Origin: Clostridia bacterium
GTDB lineage: Bacteria; Bacillota; Clostridia; Oscillospirales; Acutalibacteraceae
Length of the DNA stretch: 64,000 bases
Assembly (NCBI GenBank): GCA_017468425.1
Contig: JAFUIO010000020.1
Coordinates: forward strand, 1-64,000
Reading direction: 5' to 3'
Shown: piece by piece, positions 24,397-33,239 of the stretch
Layout: each line of letters begins with the position of its first letter
Position numbering within the stretch: position 1 is the first letter of the stretch
Program-made: the position numbers and the translations under genes
Notes under the pieces: model-generated
Databases searched by the model: none
The model's input: the letters and a program-made list of their open reading frames with translations, nothing else
Told to the model about the DNA's origin: nothing

Positions 24397-25581
24397 TCAG
24401 AGGTTATTTTTAAAAATTTCAATACTTCTTTCCAGAATACCATTTATGTGTGCAATGAGTGTACCGTAGTTTGTAATCGGTACGCCTGCATCGTTGGCAG
24501 ATTTGTTTCTGTAGCGTATTTCGCGCTCGTTTAGCATACATCCGCCGCAATGGACAATCAAAGAATATTTCTCGAGATTTTCGGGGAAACTTCCTCCTGA
24601 AGTAAATTCAAAGTTCAGTTTTTTACCTGTGAAATCAGAAATCCAGTCGGGCAATTTTACCGTGCCGATATCATCGCATTGTCTGTGATGAGTACATCCT
24701 TCGCATATCAGCACAACATCATCATCTTTCAGTCTGCTTAAGTGGTTTGCACCATTAACTGCACTTTTCAATAAACCTTTATATCTTGCAAAAAGAATTG
24801 AAAAAGATGTGAGGGGGATGTTTTCAGGAACGATGCTTTTTACTTTGTTGAAAACCTGACTGTCAGTTATAACCATTTTCGGGTTAAACTTAAGAGCGTA
24901 TTTCAATTGTTCAGGTTGCACCACAACACAGACTGCATGTTTGTCAATTACATCCCGTATTGACTGTACCTGAGGTAAAATCATTCTGCCTTTCGGTGCT
25001 GACGAATCAATAGGAGTCACAAGTATAACTACATCATCTTCATTCAATAAATCTGAAACGATTTTTTTGCTGTCATTTTCTATTTTTACGAGTGATGCAA
25101 TTCTTTCTTTCAACTCAGTGATATTTGTGTTTTTGAGTGCACTTACCTGAATTGAATTTTCATCGGTAATTGTTGTGTCAGATATATCAGCTTTATTATA
25201 CACAACAAGATACGGAATTTCTTTTTTTATGAAAAGTTCAATCAATTCTTTATCTTCTTCTGATTTGCCGATTGCAGAATCAATAACTAAAACAGCAATA
25301 TCGGTTTTGTTAAGAATCTGACGTGCTCTTTTTACTCGTAATTCACCAACCAAGCCTTCATCATCAATTCCCGGTGTATCTACAATCACAACAGGTCCTA
25401 ACGGTAAAAGTTCCATCGCTTTGGTTACCGGGTCAGTTGTCGTGCCTTTATAATCGGCAACTATTGAAATTTCCTGACCTGTTATTGCGTTAACAACGCT
25501 TGATTTACCTGCATTTCTTTTACCGAAAAATGCTATATGAGGTCGTTCAGCGCTTGGTGTCTGGTTAAGATTTGCTGCCAT
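24397..25581 (-). CDS. hydF: [FeFe]-hydrogenase H-cluster maturation GTPase HydF
   Basis: 394 residues. The N-terminal GTPase has G1 GKRNAGKSS, DTPGIDDEGL and NKAD. A middle dimerisation domain is followed by a C-terminal iron-sulfur domain with CEGCTHHR and HCGGCMLNEREI, the cluster ligands of HydF. It is the scaffold on which the 2Fe subcluster is assembled before transfer to the hydrogenase. ATG 25581 has AAAGGTG upstream; GTG 25590 is an in-frame alternative. Last gene of the hydE-hydG-hydF operon. Confidence 0.96.
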   Translation of the reverse strand: MAANLNQTPSAERPHIAFFGKRNAGKSSVVNAITGQEISIVADYKGTTTDPVTKAMELLPLGPVVIVDTPGIDDEGLVGELRVKRARQILNKTDIAVLVIDSAIGKSEEDKELIELFIKKEIPYLVVYNKADISDTTITDENSIQVSALKNTNITELKERIASLVKIENDSKKIVSDLLNEDDVVILVTPIDSSAPKGRMILPQVQSIRDVIDKHAVCVVVQPEQLKYALKFNPKMVITDSQVFNKVKSIVPENIPLTSFSILFARYKGLLKSAVNGANHLSRLKDDDVVLICEGCTHHRQCDDIGTVKLPDWISDFTGKKLNFEFTSGGSFPENLEKYSLIVHCGGCMLNEREIRYRNKSANDAGVPITNYGTLIAHINGILERSIEIFKNNL

Positions 25582-25597
25582 TAAAATCACCTTTTAA

Positions 25598-27013
25598 TCA
25601 GAATCTGAAATCTCTTTTTCCCAAATGTATATTATCGAGATAATCTTCTGCAATTTTTCTTACATTATCTTTAGGGATGTTCTTAAGTTCATCGCGGATT
25701 AATTTTTCGCCTATTTCTTTTGTTTCTTCGCTTGCGTAGTCTTCAAGGAATTCTTTTAACGTCATCAGTGCGTTAGGATGGCAACAGTTCTGAATCTGTC
25801 CGCTCTTAAGCAAAGACATAAATCTGTCGCCTGTTCTGCCTTCTCTGTAGCAAGCAGTGCAGAAGCTGGGTATAAATCCAAGTTCCATAAGCCATTTTAC
25901 AACTTCATCAAGTGTACGCTGGTCAGAAACGTCGAATTGTTCTGAATCGTGAGGCCTTTCTTCTTCTGTGTATCCGCCTACAGATGTTCTGGAAGCACCG
26001 CTGATTTGTGAAACACCAAGCTTAAGAACTCTTTCTCTTACTTCCTGACTTTCTCTTGTGGAAATAATCATTCCTGTATAAGGTACAGCGATTCTGATAA
26101 GTGCACAGATTTTTGCGAAAATATCATCGCTTATGCTGTTGTCAAAAGCACTGGGGTCGATATCATCAGCTTTCTTGATTCGCGGTACACTGATTGTATG
26201 CGGTCCTACACCGTAAACAGCTTCAAGATGTTCTGCGTGCATAAGAAGTGCTGCAAGCTCGTATCTGTAAAGTTCAAGGCCGAAAAGAACACCAAGGCCT
26301 ACGTCATCGATTCCTCCCTGCATTGCTCTGTCCATCGCTTCTGTATGGTAAGCATAGTTGTGTTTTGGACCTGTGGGATGAAGCTTTTCATAACTTTCCT
26401 TGTGGTAAGTTTCCTGGAAAAGGATATATGTTCCGATTCCTGCATCGTGGAGTTTCTTATAGTTTTCTACAGTTGTTGCAGCGATGTTTACGTTTACACG
26501 GCGGATTGCACCGTTTTTATGCTTGATTGAATAGATTGTATTGATACATTCAATAATGTATTCAATCGGATTGTTAACAGGGTCTTCACCGGCTTCAATA
26601 GCAAGTCGTTTGTGTCCCATATCCTGAAGTGCAATAACTTCATTTTTTACTTCTTCCTGTGTTAATTTTTTACGTGCGATATGTTTATTTTTATAATGAT
26701 AAGGGCAGTAAACGCATCCGTTGACGCAATAGTTAGACAGATAAAGAGGGGCGAACATAACGATTCTGTTGCCGTAAAAATCTTTTTTAATCTGTGCGGC
26801 AAGTTCGTATATTTCATTGTTGATTTCTTCATTGTCACAAGCGAGAAGAACTGATGCCTCACGGTGTGAGAGACCTTTACGTAATCTTGCTTTTTCAACT
26901 ATTGATTTAACGTATTCAATATCATTTTTCTTTTCATCTGCAAATTTAAGCGAATCAAGCACTTCTTCGTGGCAGATAAATTCTTCAGCTTTTGTTGATT
27001 TGGGATTATACAT
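25598..27013 (-). CDS. hydG: [FeFe]-hydrogenase maturase HydG (radical SAM tyrosine lyase)
   Basis: 471 residues. HydG cleaves tyrosine to deliver CO and cyanide bound to iron for the H-cluster. The radical-SAM cysteines are Cys96, Cys100 and Cys103 (CVNGCVYC). The C-terminal auxiliary-cluster motif CTACYREGRTGDRF is also intact. ATG 27013 is preferred over TTG 27031 because GAAAGAAGTG lies at a better distance. The start sits 20 bp after hydE. Confidence 0.97.
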   Translation of the reverse strand: MYNPKSTKAEEFICHEEVLDSLKFADEKKNDIEYVKSIVEKARLRKGLSHREASVLLACDNEEINNEIYELAAQIKKDFYGNRIVMFAPLYLSNYCVNGCVYCPYHYKNKHIARKKLTQEEVKNEVIALQDMGHKRLAIEAGEDPVNNPIEYIIECINTIYSIKHKNGAIRRVNVNIAATTVENYKKLHDAGIGTYILFQETYHKESYEKLHPTGPKHNYAYHTEAMDRAMQGGIDDVGLGVLFGLELYRYELAALLMHAEHLEAVYGVGPHTISVPRIKKADDIDPSAFDNSISDDIFAKICALIRIAVPYTGMIISTRESQEVRERVLKLGVSQISGASRTSVGGYTEEERPHDSEQFDVSDQRTLDEVVKWLMELGFIPSFCTACYREGRTGDRFMSLLKSGQIQNCCHPNALMTLKEFLEDYASEETKEIGEKLIRDELKNIPKDNVRKIAEDYLDNIHLGKRDFRF

Positions 27014-27032
27014 ATATGTCACTTCTTTCAAA

Positions 27033-28076
27033 TTAATTATTTATTTTATAATCGCCACGTGAAACAACTGTTTCGTAGCCGATTTTTTTCATGCTTTCTT
27101 TTAAGAGATTAAGGCTTTCAGCAGCTTCTGCACCGCTTGAAAGCTTATTGTTATAAAGCATATATTTATCTCTTACATTTTCAGGGGATAAGTTGGGCAT
27201 TACAACGTTTGCGCCGTAAAGTATACCTTTTTCTCTTCCGTCTTTTTCAACAGAGCCTAATGCTGTTGTTGCAGGCAGAAGAACATTCGGTAACATTAAC
27301 CGGATTATGCTTAAAATTTTACAGGTTAAATCTGCATCACCTGCAGGTTCATTTTTAAATGGTGTATCTGTGTGGGGGATAAAAGGACCTACACCCACCA
27401 TCTGAGGCTTGAATTCTGCGATAAAAAGCAGGTCTTCTGCGATATTTTCAATAGTCTGATACGGAGAACCAACCATAAACCCGCATCCTGTCTGAAAACC
27501 GATTTCTTTAAGATTTTTAAGACAATCCATTCTGTTTCTGAGTGTTAATTCTGCAGGATGAAGTTTTGAGTAATGGTCAGCATTTGCTGTTTCGTGTCTG
27601 AGCAGATATCTGTCTGCACCTGAATCGTAAAGCTTTTTGTAGCTGTCTTTTGTTCTTTCACCTAATGACAGTGTCACGGCACAGTCAGGATATTCGCTTT
27701 TAATTGAAGAAATAATATCGCATAACACTTCATCAGTATAATATCCGTCTTCTCCGCCTTGCAGAACAAAAGTCCTGAAACCAAGGTTATAGCCGCTTTT
27801 ACAGCAGGAGAGAATATCTTCTTTTTTTAGTCTGTATCTTGAGCAATTTTTGTTGCTTTTTCTTATACCGCAATAATAACAATCGTTTTTGCATATATTC
27901 GAAATTTCAATAAGGCCTCTTATATATACGTGGTTTGAATAAATTTCCAGTCTTTTTTTTACGGCACACTCACGCAGGTATCCGTTGGTCTGAGTATCGT
28001 TACATTCAAGTAATGCAATTAATTCTTCTTTATTAAGAATGCCGTTACATAAAAGTTTATCAACAGTATTTATCAT
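27033..28076 (-). CDS. hydE: [FeFe]-hydrogenase maturase HydE (radical SAM)
   Basis: 347 residues. It works with HydG and HydF to build the bridging dithiolate ligand. The motif CKNDCYYC (Cys62, Cys66, Cys69) and the LQGGEDGYYTDE strand are typical. GAGGTATAACA precedes the ATG, 2 bp after the regulator gene, so they are translationally linked. Confidence 0.95.
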   Translation of the reverse strand: MINTVDKLLCNGILNKEELIALLECNDTQTNGYLRECAVKKRLEIYSNHVYIRGLIEISNICKNDCYYCGIRKSNKNCSRYRLKKEDILSCCKSGYNLGFRTFVLQGGEDGYYTDEVLCDIISSIKSEYPDCAVTLSLGERTKDSYKKLYDSGADRYLLRHETANADHYSKLHPAELTLRNRMDCLKNLKEIGFQTGCGFMVGSPYQTIENIAEDLLFIAEFKPQMVGVGPFIPHTDTPFKNEPAGDADLTCKILSIIRLMLPNVLLPATTALGSVEKDGREKGILYGANVVMPNLSPENVRDKYMLYNNKLSSGAEAAESLNLLKESMKKIGYETVVSRGDYKINN

Positions 28077-28078
28077 TG

Positions 28079-28342
28079 TTATACCTCATTTTCAAAGTCG
28101 TAGTTTGAAAATGCAGTTTTAGCACTTACACCGTCAAGTCTCCCGATTTTACCTGTCAAAGAATTTATAACATCAGAAGGGGCTTCAAGAGCAACACTGA
28201 TAATACTTATATTTCTTTTTTTGTAAGGAATTCCCATTCTGCCTATAATATACTCTCCGTATTCGTGTAAAACAGAATTGAGTTTTTCAACACTTTCAAA
28301 ATTTTCGATAATAATTGAAATTAAAGCAACTCTTGTTTTCAT
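28079..28342 (-). CDS. TM1266-type iron-only hydrogenase system putative regulator
   Basis: 87 residues. The sequence follows the small ACT/NikR-like family found beside hydE, hydF and hydG in clostridia (start KTRVALISIIIEN, YGEYIIGRMGIPYK, then a beta-rich end). It has no DNA-binding domain, so direct transcriptional control is doubtful; ligand sensing or maturase assembly are alternatives. It is first in the operon, directly after a leader with a terminator. Confidence 0.85.
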   Translation of the reverse strand: MKTRVALISIIIENFESVEKLNSVLHEYGEYIIGRMGIPYKKRNISIISVALEAPSDVINSLTGKIGRLDGVSAKTAFSNYDFENEV

Positions 28343-28352
28343 AAATTTCCTC

Positions 28353-28386
28353 CAAACAAAAATAGCTGCACCACGAGGGTACAGCT
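28353..28386 (-). terminator. Leader terminator of the hydrogenase maturation operon
   Basis: On the minus strand AGCUGUACC (28386-28378) pairs with GGUGCAGCU (28372-28364) around a CUCGU loop, then AUUUUUGUUU. It lies within the 5' leader, only 11 bp before the first start codon. Confidence 0.8.
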
Positions 28387-28482
28387 ACAGAATTTCAGCA
28401 TATAAAAATACCAAGGTTGTTTTTTGTAGCTTTCGCCTCAATGAATTTTGGCGTCAGGTACATATTTATAATCATCTCATTG
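28378..28482 (-). promoter_or_regulatory. Candidate riboswitch-like attenuator leader of the hyd maturation operon
   Basis: The ~139-nt leader holds a CGCC/GGCG hairpin (28434-28437 with 28450-28453, 12-nt loop). A 7-bp long-range stem AGCUACA/UGUAGCU (28431-28425 with 28389-28383) shares four bases with the terminator's 5' arm, so the two structures compete. This is the architecture of a transcription attenuator. I could not match it to any riboswitch or T-box consensus I know. Confidence 0.6.
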
Positions 28483-28487
28483 ATGAC

Positions 28488-28516
28488 ATTATAACACATT
28501 GACAAAAATTTATCAA
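28488..28516 (-). promoter_or_regulatory. Promoter of the hyd operon with a Rex-like site
   Basis: TTGATA (28511-28516) and TATAAT (28488-28493) on the minus strand are 17 bases apart. The 18-bp stretch 28499-28516 (plus strand TTGACAAAAATTTATCAA) matches the clostridial Rex consensus TTGTTAA-N4-TTAACAA at 11 of 14 defined positions and covers the -35 box. Confidence 0.6.
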
Positions 28517-28519
28517 TAC

Positions 28520-29068
28520 TTATTTAAACGATTTCATAAATTTTTTTCGCCATCTTTTCTTGTATATAATTGCGAGCCTTGAAAGAACAATATCATACAT
28601 ATAAAAGAAAACACTTGCAAAGACAATTATAATCGGTGCTACATACCACTTTGTAAGATATGGTGTTATCCATTCAATTCCCTCGGTGTCTATTCCGAAG
28701 AATTTAAGTGAAATGTAATAGCTTAACAGTAAAACAATATTGGCAATTATTAGTTTGAAGATTAAAGCAATATGCCTTGAAAATTTATTTTCAAAAATAG
28801 TTTTGACTACAGGATAATAGCCGAAAATCAAAGCGTATGCTGCTCCTGCGGATTTATCAGGAATAAGTATCAATGAAAGTATACTTACACAGGCATAAAC
28901 CAGTAATGCCCATTTTTTACCACATTCTGTAACAAGAATTATTATCAGAGTACCGCAGATTGCCGGTACGGCATAGGACAAAAAAGGGATAATTGTTGTT
29001 AAGATCATAAGAGCGATTGACAAGCCTGACATTATCGCACCCAATGCTATTTTAGAAGTGTTTTTCAA
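28520..29068 (-). CDS. Membrane protein resembling ECF transporter S components
   Basis: 182 residues with about five membrane helices and a basic C-terminus (YKKRWRKKFMKSFK). The segment ALGAIMSGLSIALMILTTII is like vitamin-uptake S components, but I cannot name the substrate. TTG 29068 is preferred because GAGGTGA is well spaced before it; an ATG at 29122 lies in frame upstream. Its end abuts the hyd promoter. Confidence 0.6.
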   Translation of the reverse strand: MKNTSKIALGAIMSGLSIALMILTTIIPFLSYAVPAICGTLIIILVTECGKKWALLVYACVSILSLILIPDKSAGAAYALIFGYYPVVKTIFENKFSRHIALIFKLIIANIVLLLSYYISLKFFGIDTEGIEWITPYLTKWYVAPIIIVFASVFFYMYDIVLSRLAIIYKKRWRKKFMKSFK

Positions 29069-29151
29069 AAATTTCACCTCAACCAAATGATTGTTTATAC
29101 TTAATAAGTTTACAACAAACATTACTGATTGTGTTTAACATATTGTAAACT

Positions 29152-29183
29152 TTAAAAAATAACCCTGCCGTGAAGACAGGGTT
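29152..29183 (-). terminator. Terminator after the dehydrogenase/zinc-ribbon gene
   Basis: AACCCTG (29161-29167) pairs with CAGGGTT (29177-29183). On the minus strand ATTTTTTAAA follows. Confidence 0.85.
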
Positions 29184-29196
29184 ATTTAACTTTAAA

Positions 29197-30726
29197 TTAG
29201 TCTTTGAAACCTTCAAATCCTTTGAAGATTGCTTCTGTGTAAACGTTGTTTTCGTTTACATCGTGAAGGGGATACCAAACCTGTGCAAAGAAGGGGTTGA
29301 TTTTTGCTTCTGTGTCGTAATCCCAGTTGAATTTTTTGCCTTCGCAATCTGTGGGATGTTCTGACGGACACCAATGGCCGCCCTTAAGTACAAGGTTAGC
29401 AGACATCATAAATTCGTGACCTCTTGCACATTTCCATTTGATAGGTGTGTAGAAATCAACATATTCATCTTCTGTAGCAAGACATTCACCGCCACGGAAT
29501 TCAGCAGCTTTCTTAAGATCTTCAAGTGTGATGTCTTCAACAGCTTTGCTTTCATCATAACCGTGATCAAGATAAGATCTTTCTCTTGTGGGACGTTCTG
29601 CTTCGGGGTTATAATCTTTCCAGGTGCCGATTTTGTTGTATTCTTCAAGAGAACCCCAATAAGCTGTGATTCTGTCCTGAACATTATTTTTGAGCCACCA
29701 GTTTGTACCATAAATTTCTTCGTTTGAAAGTTTTTTCATGAAAAGTTTTACAGCAGGCGGACAGAGCTGTGCAGCAGGTGCAAGTTTAATCCAACCGGGA
29801 GCCTGTGCTTTAAGACCTGCAAAATATTCTTTAACAGGAATATTAGCACGGAAGTGGAGATAATCGTCAAGTACATCACTGTCAAGATACCACTGACCGT
29901 GGAAGTTACGTGTGATAAACCAATTACGGTCGAAAAGTTTTTCAACTTTACCAACACCGAGAGCACCAAGAAGGAGACATTCGAATTCATAGTTAGTGAT
30001 TCTGTATTCTTCACCACTACCGATATTATAGAATCTTCTCCAGAAATCTTCAGGAACATCGTCTCCGCAGATGTTAGCGAGAAGTCTGCCTGAATCTTCT
30101 ACTGTTGCCCATTCAAGCACGCCGTTAAGAGGAACGTGGAACATGATGGGGTCGATATTTTTAATGATTCCGGGATAGAGGATACCTGACTGGCGGAGTG
30201 AAACCCAATGTTTAAGACCTGATTCAGCGAAAATCTGTTCAGCAAGAACTTTACTTGCTGCATAGTGGTCATAAATACTGATTTTGATGGGGTCACCTGT
30301 ACGAGCCCAGTGAATAGGAGCGTTTCTGTCACCTGTTTCAGCAACAGTACCGATGTAAACAACTTTAATATCATCAGCATTAGGCTGTTCTTTTACTGCA
30401 TTTACGATGTTTCTTGCAGCTGTTGTATTTGTAACAACTGTCTTTGTGGGATAATAGTCAGCACTGGGAGATACCATACCGCCAACGTGAAGAACATAGT
30501 CTGCACCTTTCACGCATTTAAGAACATCATCATATTTTGTAAGGTCGCCCCAAACGAGTTTAACTGAAGGGTCACCTTCATATTTTGCGAATTTTTCGCG
30601 GTTTTTCTTACTTCCTCTGTTGAGAAGCACAATGTTGTATTTGTCTTTCTTTGCATAGAGTTCTTTGAAACCGGCCCATCCCATGTTACCTGATGAACCT
30701 GTTAAAAAGACGGTTTTTTTAGACAT
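29197..30726 (-). CDS. Extended SDR (NAD-dependent epimerase/dehydratase) fused to a C-terminal zinc-ribbon-like domain
   Basis: 509 residues. The N-terminal ~320 form a Rossmann SDR with VFLTGSSGNMGWAG at 6-19 and a catalytic YxxxK-type region (YDHYAASKVLAEQ). The C-terminal ~110 residues are unusual: GGECLATEDEY, then KWKCARGHEF (Cys433, His437), then GGHWCP (Cys453) and Cys461. This spacing resembles the treble-clef/zinc-ribbon modules found at the ends of phage-type nucleases and DNA-binding proteins. Substrate and role of the tail are unknown. It has its own promoter (30749-30811 region, minus strand) and a terminator. Confidence 0.8.
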   Translation of the reverse strand: MSKKTVFLTGSSGNMGWAGFKELYAKKDKYNIVLLNRGSKKNREKFAKYEGDPSVKLVWGDLTKYDDVLKCVKGADYVLHVGGMVSPSADYYPTKTVVTNTTAARNIVNAVKEQPNADDIKVVYIGTVAETGDRNAPIHWARTGDPIKISIYDHYAASKVLAEQIFAESGLKHWVSLRQSGILYPGIIKNIDPIMFHVPLNGVLEWATVEDSGRLLANICGDDVPEDFWRRFYNIGSGEEYRITNYEFECLLLGALGVGKVEKLFDRNWFITRNFHGQWYLDSDVLDDYLHFRANIPVKEYFAGLKAQAPGWIKLAPAAQLCPPAVKLFMKKLSNEEIYGTNWWLKNNVQDRITAYWGSLEEYNKIGTWKDYNPEAERPTRERSYLDHGYDESKAVEDITLEDLKKAAEFRGGECLATEDEYVDFYTPIKWKCARGHEFMMSANLVLKGGHWCPSEHPTDCEGKKFNWDYDTEAKINPFFAQVWYPLHDVNENNVYTEAIFKGFEGFKD

Positions 30727-30805: not shown

Positions 30806-30859
30806 TTTTTTTAATATTTTTCATAGAATAGATTAAAGAATAACAAAGGAATGATACAC

Positions 30860-31108
30860 TTGAATGAGTTGTGTTTATTATCTCAATTAAGTGAAGGTGA
30901 AATCGGAATAGTTAATGCAATAAACGTTACCGGTTCTATGCGAAGACGCCTTCAGGATTTGGGATTAATTCGTGAAACAGAAATAAAATGTCTGTTCAGA
31001 AATGTTAAAGGAAACCTCGGTGCTTATAATATCAGAGATGCGGTAATTGCTTTGAGAAACAGTGATACATCTCGTATAGAAGTTATAAGAAAGAAAAATG
31101 GGGCGTGA
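30860..31108 (+). CDS. feoA: Ferrous iron transport protein FeoA
   Basis: 82 residues. Small SH3-like cytosolic partner of FeoB, with MRRRLQDLGLIRETEIKCLF typical of the family. TTG 30860 is preferred, with AAAGGA nine bases upstream; ATG 30851 sits directly on that site. It precedes feoB by 4 bp. Confidence 0.9.
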   Translation: MNELCLLSQLSEGEIGIVNAINVTGSMRRRLQDLGLIRETEIKCLFRNVKGNLGAYNIRDAVIALRNSDTSRIEVIRKKNGA

Positions 31109-31112
31109 TAAC

Positions 31113-33239
31113 ATGGGACTTACACTGTCTTCTACAGGAACAAATATTGCTAAAAAAGATTTGTTTGAATATAATGCACTGAAACAGAGAGAAGAAATAC
31201 TGATAGGTCTCGCAGGTAATCCTAATGTGGGGAAAAGTACACTTTTCAATAATCTGACAGGTATGCATCAGCATACGGGGAATTGGCCGGGCAAAACAAT
31301 TTCGAGTGCTATCGGTAGAATTAAATATGGTGAAAAACAATATTTACTTGCAGATTTGCCGGGAACATATTCTTTGCTTACTCATTCAAAAGAAGAAGAT
31401 GTGGCACGTGATTTTATTTGTTTTTCAGGAGCGAAAAAAATAATTGTTGTTTGTGATGCTACTTGTCTTGAAAGAAATCTGAATCTCTGTTTGCAGATAA
31501 TAGAAATGACGGACAATGTATGTGTATGTGTAAATCTGATTGATGAAGCAGAAAGAAAGGGTATTGAAATAGATTTTGATAAGCTCTCTGTTGAATTGGG
31601 TGTTGAAGTTGTAAGTGTTATAGCTCGTCAGAAAAAATCAGCAAAATTATTATCTGAACTTTCCGAATTATCTGTCAGTCAAAAGAAAATTCAAATAAAG
31701 TATCCGTCTGTAATTGAAGAATGCATTGACGTACTTAAAGATAGTTTTATAAAATATAATTTCAATTTTTCCGAACGTTGGCTTGCTGTGAATCTGTTAA
31801 CTTGCAGAGAAGAAATAACAGAAAAAATCAAGACATATTATAATATTGATTTAATGCAGGATAAGCAGGTAGTCACGGCATTGAAAATGACGGATAAAAT
31901 AATAGAACGATACGGACAAACATCAGAAAGCATAATTGATAAAGTTGCAAGAACATTTGTAAAAAAGGCAGAAGAAATTTCAGGAAAAACAGTTGTGAAA
32001 AAACAAAATAAAGAGAATACTGTATTGGATAAAATACTTACAGGTAAAATTACGGGAAGAATTCTTATGGTAGGATTATTGTTAGTTGTTTTCTGGCTGA
32101 CAATAAAAGGAGCAAATTTACCTTCTGAATTATTGAGTAAAACATTTATAGCAGGGGAGAAATACATAGATATTTTTCTCGATAAACTCAATGTGCCGGA
32201 AATTTTCAAAAATATGTTGATTTGCGGTGTGTACAGAGTTCTTACATGGGTAATTTCTGTTATGCTGCCGCCTATGGCAATATTTTTCCCGCTTTTTACA
32301 CTGCTCGAAGATTCAGGTTATCTTCCGAGAATTGCCTTTAATATGGATAATTTCTTCCGTAAATGTAATTCCTGCGGTAAACAGGCACTGACCATCAGTA
32401 TGGGTTTCGGATGCAATGCAGCAGGTGTTACCGGAACAAGGATTATTGATTCGGACAGAGAAAGATTAATTTCAATTCTGACTAATTCCTTTGTTCCTTG
32501 TAACGGAAGATTTCCGATGATGATATCAGTGATTTCCATATTTTTTGCAACGTCTATGGCTATTTCGGATGTTATATCTGCATTAATTATGACTGCACTT
32601 ATCTGTTTTGGGATTTTTATGACATTTATTGTGTCAAAAATATTGTCTGAAACGTGGCTGAAAGGGGAAAGCTCATCCTTTGCACTTGAGTTGCCTCCAT
32701 TCAGAAAGCCGCAGATAGGAAAAGTAATTATAAGGTCTGTGTTTGACAGAACACTTTTTGTCCTGTTGCGTGCAATGGCAGTTGCAGCACCTGCAGGATT
32801 GATTATATGGTTAATGGTAAATATCAAAGTTGATTCAGTATCGTTATTTTCTTTATGTGCTGATTTTCTTGACCCATTCGCATCCTTTATAGGTCTTGAC
32901 GGAGTAATACTCATTGCCTTTATTCTTGGGTTTCCTGCAAATGAAATAGTTGTTCCGTTAACGATTATGGGTTACACCTGTTCAGGTGAATTGCAACAGG
33001 TTTCCGATATGGAAACGCTGAAATATATTTTCACATCAAATGGCTGGACAGCAGTTACAGCAATTTGTTTTCTTGTATTTACTCTTATGCACTGGCCTTG
33101 TTCAACAACGTGTATAACAATATATAAAGAAACCAAAAGCAAAAAGTGGACATTTTTAGGTTTTGTTATTCCAACATTATGCGGAATGATATTATGTTTT
33201 CTGATAAATACAGTATATAAAATTTTAACGGCGGTATGA
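31113..33239 (+). CDS. feoB: Ferrous iron transport protein FeoB
   Basis: 708 residues. N-terminal G protein with GNPNVGKSTLFN (G1), LADLPGTYSL (G3) and VNLIDEAE (G4-like), then two Gate domains with cysteine-containing helices (CNSCGKQALTISMGFGCNAAG; ALMHWPCSTTC-type end) and about 8-10 membrane helices. It imports Fe2+, which this iron-sulfur-rich anaerobe needs for hydrogenase maturation and aconitase. ATG 31113 follows GGGG at a proper distance; ATG 31098 is an in-frame alternative overlapping feoA. A hairpin follows. Confidence 0.96.
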   Translation: MGLTLSSTGTNIAKKDLFEYNALKQREEILIGLAGNPNVGKSTLFNNLTGMHQHTGNWPGKTISSAIGRIKYGEKQYLLADLPGTYSLLTHSKEEDVARDFICFSGAKKIIVVCDATCLERNLNLCLQIIEMTDNVCVCVNLIDEAERKGIEIDFDKLSVELGVEVVSVIARQKKSAKLLSELSELSVSQKKIQIKYPSVIEECIDVLKDSFIKYNFNFSERWLAVNLLTCREEITEKIKTYYNIDLMQDKQVVTALKMTDKIIERYGQTSESIIDKVARTFVKKAEEISGKTVVKKQNKENTVLDKILTGKITGRILMVGLLLVVFWLTIKGANLPSELLSKTFIAGEKYIDIFLDKLNVPEIFKNMLICGVYRVLTWVISVMLPPMAIFFPLFTLLEDSGYLPRIAFNMDNFFRKCNSCGKQALTISMGFGCNAAGVTGTRIIDSDRERLISILTNSFVPCNGRFPMMISVISIFFATSMAISDVISALIMTALICFGIFMTFIVSKILSETWLKGESSSFALELPPFRKPQIGKVIIRSVFDRTLFVLLRAMAVAAPAGLIIWLMVNIKVDSVSLFSLCADFLDPFASFIGLDGVILIAFILGFPANEIVVPLTIMGYTCSGELQQVSDMETLKYIFTSNGWTAVTAICFLVFTLMHWPCSTTCITIYKETKSKKWTFLGFVIPTLCGMILCFLINTVYKILTAV

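Follow-up and report, generated by a model that had tools for sequence, protein, structure and literature searches.

The window studied here, that is, the whole stretch of 64,000 nucleotides (nt) from a Clostridia bacterium (assembly GCA_017468425.1, contig JAFUIO010000020.1), carries on its minus strand an RNA leader followed by the genes TM1266, hydE, hydG and hydF. Sequence comparison supports a conserved hairpin in this leader, its position ahead of genes for assembly of the [FeFe]-hydrogenase H-cluster, and complementarity of the hairpin's 3' strand to the leader's own terminator. As predicted from this covarying hairpin, the leader is very probably an OFF attenuator. The first choice for the factor that holds the hairpin is the candidate TM1266, for which we see an even chance. 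For the whole explanation, a predicted OFF attenuator with a hairpin likely held by TM1266, we would give a probability of about 0.5. A first-pass annotation of the window had proposed a new riboswitch or attenuator controlling hydrogenase maturation. What it observed is real and its interpretation as a whole is partly supported; the claim of a new attenuator is strengthened by the covariation, the position ahead of the H-cluster genes and the complementarity to the own terminator, whereas its riboswitch reading and its suggested ligands (linked to iron, SAM or redox state) stay conjectural.

The hairpin class

Our comparison started from the sequences that precede TM1266 genes in related genomes (protein match in 51 of 98 genomes; 47 loci), and the same hairpin was recognised by eye in many of the 47 loci. 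A first model, R1, was made from 16 sites and a second, R2, from 33; the window site is among the training rows of both. Read along the strand, the class pattern consists of CUGA, a helix P1 of 3-4 pairs, RA, a second helix P2 (AA/UU, AG/CU or GG/CC), a variable loop, GA, the P1 partner and RAAG; in condensed form, RAAR stands 5' of the variable loop and YUGA 3' of it. The helix of 3-4 base pairs (bp) has on either side an inner loop in which GA faces RA, and these two loops are near-identical. The hairpin loop is of free length across sites. Kink-turns, which have a 3-nt bulge beside tandem G.A pairs, were considered and dropped: in the aligned sites each inner loop has two nucleotides on either strand, with no bulge.

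Covariation among homologous leaders, a check proposed in the first-pass annotation, was found. In the 33-site alignment both partners vary in 8 of 9 pairs and remain able to pair, and 90.1% of cells pair; the covariation score is 0.607 against 0.225 in shuffles, and none of 500 shuffles reaches it. Sliding the partner by 1-3 columns lowers the paired cells to at most 49.7%. RNAalifold returned the same helices from this alignment, itself fitted to the first model. For a separate set, 80 TM1266 loci were taken by protein similarity among the matches listed (one of them, L191, is also a training locus). Among the matches listed, the model places 56 sites at E <=1 in 49 of these loci, all on the TM1266 strand, and none in the remaining 31; here 93.4% of cells are paired. 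Both covariation alignments were fitted to the model, which biases them towards it. Tandem copies occur in L017, L078 and L079 and, in the separate set, in L165, L178 and L237. Since a divergent form with AAGGGNNCGUCCC (L021, L028, L034, L040, L042) lies outside the models, our site counts are lower bounds. We also noted, by eye, G opposite G at the second position of P1 in L026 and L027, a position filled by a standard pair at most other sites; the case of L026 depends on register, and L019 is possibly another.

In the window, the leader contains the following elements.

28343..28481, minus strand: leader of 139 nt, 5' end inferred from the -10 box
28427..28460, minus strand: conserved hairpin (R1 39.6 bits; R2 38.1 bits, E 8.7e-7; covariation)
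28425..28462, minus strand: outer pairing of UGUA (28462-28459) with UACA (28428-28425), which lengthens the hairpin in the minimum-energy fold
28425..28431, minus strand: predicted antiterminator 5' arm AGCUACA, overlapping the hairpin 3' strand (complementarity; own-versus-cross pairing test, 114 sites)
28383..28389, minus strand: predicted antiterminator 3' arm UGUAGCU (complementarity; six bases common to the terminator)
28354..28388, minus strand: intrinsic terminator, 11-bp stem (28388-28378 with 28372-28362) and U-rich tail (terminator search)

The hairpin core comprises CUGA (28457-28454), P1 CGCC/GGCG (28453-28450 with 28437-28434) and AAAG (28433-28430), with an AAAA/UUGA inner loop and P2 in its inner part; the sequence of the outer UGUA/UACA pairing is not conserved at other sites. 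The first-pass annotation had correctly placed the promoter, the leader of about 139 nt, a GC hairpin, the AGCUACA/UGUAGCU stem and the terminator on the minus strand. The long-range stem and the terminator have six bases in common (28388-28383), where it had counted four, and the GC hairpin and antiterminator arm, which it treated as separate things, both exist but are parts of one conserved element.

The first-pass annotation could match the leader to no class it knew, and its second check, comparison with Rfam, likewise turned out in its favour. With Rfam 15, no family reaches its gathering threshold in the window except a tRNA at 164-237, and in 20 homologous loci tRNAs alone do so, by which we reject a known Rfam class. 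At E <=10 the leader gives seven sub-threshold matches, the best being rli32 (23.7 bits against 100) and Ref84 (28.2 against 52). In the literature searched we found no description of the class, although one may exist, most subscription papers and all supplements having been out of reach. The main texts of four RNA-discovery papers (PMC11109978, PMC8632094, PMC6429828, PMC2864571), of a review of former orphan riboswitches (PMC7266159) and of a review of C. difficile riboswitches (PMC11477304) are without the words 'hydrogenase', hydE or hydG, and PMC10418091 and PMC11365079 mention riboswitches or hydrogenase in other contexts. The kind of device, a leader RNA competing with a terminator, is known; the RNA class, the regulon and the possible RNA regulator of NikR fold are new as far as we searched.

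Predicted coupling to terminators and ribosome-binding sites

The 7-bp complementarity of AGCUACA (28431-28425) and UGUAGCU (28389-28383) would break both the hairpin and the terminator. The hairpin (28462-28425) and the terminator (28388-28362), in turn, occupy separate stretches, and the minimum-energy fold contains both. As the 3' strand is common to hairpin and antiterminator, the two compete, and the compatibility of hairpin and terminator gives OFF logic. With no factor bound, AGCUACA would leave the hairpin and pair with UGUAGCU, the terminator would be blocked and transcription would run on into TM1266-hydE-hydG-hydF. A bound factor would keep AGCUACA in the hairpin, the terminator would form and the genes would be off. 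In the early window transcript the antiterminator (-14.7) is favoured over the hairpin (-13.3) by a computed 1.4 kcal/mol, and such predicted closeness of the two early states is what a switch needs. The terminator is the sole terminator-like site in 27600-29200 (1 found, 0.5 expected).

We extended this analysis to 122 distinct sites, made up of the 33 of the model set, the 56 of the separate set and the 34 of 70 class matches that were judged real, one duplicate removed. A lax search finds a terminator after 114 of them, which overstates the frequency because the set omits four class sites next to a hydG Shine-Dalgarno sequence (L098, L118 and a single site from each of L142 and L149); some of the 114 are poor (L226, L150, L186). 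A strong terminator (score >25 within 120 nt) follows 42 of the 56 separate-set sites, against 0 of 56 shuffled means. For the hairpin 3' strand, the mean pairing energy is -11.8 kcal/mol with the terminator region of its own locus and -8.35 with those of other loci (p 1e-17). Own pairings beat 90% of cross pairs at 49 of the 114 sites and 95% at 31, by a control that is conservative since related loci share arms. The AAG strand of the hairpin is included in 101 of the 114 antiterminator duplexes.

It could be argued that the leader is constitutive, a chance hairpin beside an ordinary terminator with no regulation. Taken alone, the window leader is only slightly more stable than its shuffles (z -1.70; 16 of the 200 are equally stable), and the weight rests on comparison; covariation in two sets, enrichment by strand and position, and own-terminator complementarity contradict a constitutive leader, which we regard as very improbable.

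At 16 sites the hairpin ends 7-13 nt before the ATG and runs into the Shine-Dalgarno sequence. The gene is hydG in 14 of these (4 by search, 10 from the N-terminal sequence by eye) and TM1266 in L187 and L210. Here a bound hairpin would presumably block ribosomes and hence initiation, with the same sign as at the terminators. The L187 and L210 hairpins, with a longer inner arm (51 and 54 nt), are from loci recorded as Spirochaetales, which suggests translational control outside Clostridia if this assignment is right. In sum, the comparison points to a conserved, covarying, aptamer-like RNA that appears coupled to an expression platform.

The hairpins bound by RAT-type antiterminator proteins (LicT, SacY) are likewise short and carry two inner loops, separated by about 3 bp, that suit a symmetric protein. 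The RAT sequence overlaps its terminator directly, and its binding favours read-through. Unlike there, hairpin and terminator are compatible here and the predicted sign is opposite, by which we rejected an antiterminator of the RAT/LicT type.

Genes preceded by the hairpin

In the class survey, 96 of 341 genomes have an R2 match at E <=0.05, and 62 were accepted by context, 38 read in their sequence context and 24 judged from coordinates; the sorting rests on our own reading. For G147 and G201 the hydG coordinate alone was listed, and the intervening TM1266 was assumed from G113, of the same genus. A further 26 were read and set aside, most lying inside a coding frame, and eight were not fetched (G102, G160, G229, G269, G299, G376, G403, G404); three of these eight, G102, G269 and G299, match neither TM1266 nor hydG. 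Among those set aside, G396 and G430 are ambiguous, and G110 and G146 have in common a degenerate copy that separates TM1266 from a substrate-binding protein. The lower-scoring matches of an earlier scan are likewise mostly inside coding frames (L089 and L091 are not clear-cut).

The commonest place of accepted sites is ahead of TM1266. Others precede hydE (G200, G366, G415), hydG (for example G277, G287, G171, G143, G209, G296, G107, G368, G383), hydF (G303, G132) or the aspartate ammonia-lyase gene aspA (G388, by eye; G186, with hydF next and an aspA protein scoring 688.5 bits with NF008909). PMC11736057 reports a link between hyd operons and ammonia-lyases, chiefly aspA, which can provide the bridge nitrogen of the H-cluster. 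In G090 and G066 tandem hairpins are followed by a small acetyltransferase-like open reading frame (ORF) and hydG-like and hydF-like ORFs (by eye). In G152, G206 and G228, which have no hydG match, TM1266 and what looks like a small membrane protein follow the hairpin; in G152 the latter matches no Pfam or NCBIfam family, and NuoE- and NuoF-like subunits follow. In G089 (L248) the hairpin is followed by TM1266, an FecCD-type permease and a NifH-like protein, and in G303 (L247) by hydF, a HydE-like ORF (by eye), and NifH-like and nitrogenase-component-1-like proteins. This company hints at a wider metal-cofactor regulon. We are unsure of a weak match (L150, E 0.014) in G277 that lies before the gene for an ABC substrate-binding protein.

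Several ABC transporter sets were seen nearby. One, with a substrate-binding protein and, by eye, permease and ATPase, adjoins TM1266 in L246 (G326) and L250 (G110); the binding proteins of both genomes have no Pfam match at the cut-offs used, and upstream of TM1266 in L250 lies an [FeFe]-hydrogenase gene. In L251 (G277) a set lies downstream of a weak hairpin copy, its binding protein being NMT1/phosphonate-binding-like.

The promoter and genes of the window, all four proteins exceeding curated NCBIfam cut-offs, are as follows.

28488..28516, minus strand: promoter match, sigma-70-type TTGATA-17-TATAAT with TG before the -10 box (11/12 positions)
28349..28353, minus strand: Shine-Dalgarno sequence GGAGG of TM1266 (sequence)
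28079..28342, minus strand: TM1266-family protein, 87 aa (amino acids), putative regulator (TIGR03959 114.6 bits, cut-off 60.8; PF21699)
27033..28076, minus strand: HydE radical SAM (S-adenosylmethionine) maturase (TIGR03956 568.9 bits)
25598..27031, minus strand: HydG radical SAM maturase (TIGR03955 932 bits)
24397..25590, minus strand: HydF maturation GTPase (TIGR03918 544.6 bits)

The 1.6-kilobase region around the promoter has 16 promoter-like sites against 7.0 in shuffles; by eye, L002 and L003 also have promoter-like sequence at the corresponding place. The ORF list, limited to >=70 aa, has no minus-strand upstream peptide of that size within the leader. A membrane-protein-like ORF (28520-29122, minus strand; DUF2232 23 bits, under the cut-off of 27.8) lies immediately upstream of the promoter, and L002 and L003 seemingly have a similar sequence at the same place (by eye). 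On the opposite strand, adjoining the hyd operon, a small ORF and a 713-aa ORF (30851-33239, plus strand) resemble, by eye, FeoA/FeoB of ferrous iron transport.

The proposed factor holding the hairpin

The protein that we propose to hold the hairpin, TM1266, has in the window a fold like that of the NikR C-terminal domain (model and fold match). Its 87 aa form one predicted beta-alpha-beta-beta-alpha-beta domain that aligns to this domain alone, and a family relative has been solved (2NZC). Pfam NikR_C scores 16.5 bits, below the cut-off of 22, and, unlike NikR, the window protein has no N-terminal ribbon-helix-helix DNA-binding domain in its 87 aa. TM1266 is probably an oligomer, the symmetry of which would suit a two-fold RNA site, and its binding to the leader of its own operon would amount to feedback control tuned by some signal. 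Ribosomal protein operons, which are autoregulated through a hairpin ahead of the operon of the binder, in cases at Shine-Dalgarno sites, are a parallel; here many sites precede other genes and TM1266 is a putative binder. A more far-reaching reading, to which we give a little less than even odds, is that TM1266 is a NikR-fold sensor of the state of the H-cluster (or of metal or redox state) which grips the two-fold symmetric hairpin and silences a regulon through terminator or ribosome block. This regulon would consist of hydE, hydG, hydF and aspA and, in some species, of hydrogenase-type electron-transfer subunits, FecCD-type transport and nitrogenase-like genes. We know of no other NikR-fold member acting on RNA; TM1266 would be the first, if this is true.

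The choice of TM1266 draws on its presence in 60 of 62 motif genomes, a count that includes sites at its own leaders. Several findings weigh against such a switch held by TM1266. Without the own-leader sites, co-occurrence is 9/70 against 2/42 (p 0.22, not significant), and we do not claim TM1266 as a proven partner. The motif occurs in G111 and G287, genomes 97% and 93% complete in which a PF21699 search relaxed to E 10 still gives no TM1266 above cut-off, and 149 of 209 TM1266 genomes have no accepted motif. TM1266 is neutral (median isoelectric point 6.5, 23 members), unlike the basic kind usual for RNA binders, and a P1 of 3 bp at 15 of the 56 separate-set sites is awkward for a rigid dimer. 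In the full-length window leader without factor, hairpin plus terminator (-31.1) is more stable than the antiterminator (-27.0), so that the choice would have to fall during transcription.

A close rival, and a real if somewhat lesser possibility, is a metabolite or metal riboswitch, in which the GA/RA inner loops bind a small ligand tied to H-cluster assembly (for instance iron, SAM, ammonium or a product of HydE or HydG) and the genes are off when it is plentiful. Terminator-coupled OFF riboswitches likewise have a 3' strand common to hairpin and antiterminator, then an intrinsic terminator, and the sites at many genes of one pathway, aspA included, the tandem copies known from some riboswitches and the two motif genomes in which no TM1266 was found would all suit one. 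Unlike those riboswitches, the element is a short single hairpin that reaches the threshold of no Rfam family, and the data name no ligand; as an aptamer it would be small and simple, its two halves being near-identical and its loop of free length, and nearly all motif genomes have TM1266. Because of these halves and because the TM1266 gene is the most constant partner, we rate a protein-bound switch no less likely than a riboswitch. That another RNA-binding protein or a trans RNA uses the site, TM1266 being a mere operon neighbour, would agree with its neutral charge and the non-significant unbiased co-occurrence; we consider this improbable, as no other gene accompanied the motif in the operons read, although the reads spanned few genes and no genome-wide search for other partners was made.

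In conclusion, we favour an OFF attenuator with TM1266 as the likely factor. To our knowledge, bacterial control of H-cluster assembly for [FeFe]-hydrogenases, a costly process, is little known. TM1266 is a 'putative regulator' in family libraries for which we found no target, nor a study of one, in the literature searched, and this RNA would be its first proposed target. With a defined 36-nt RNA in dozens of Clostridial genomes, both H-cluster control and the TM1266 target become directly testable, and such an RNA would also offer a way into the hydrogen metabolism of gut Clostridia. The gene aspA, recently tied to the bridge nitrogen of the H-cluster (PMC11736057), falls under the same predicted control.
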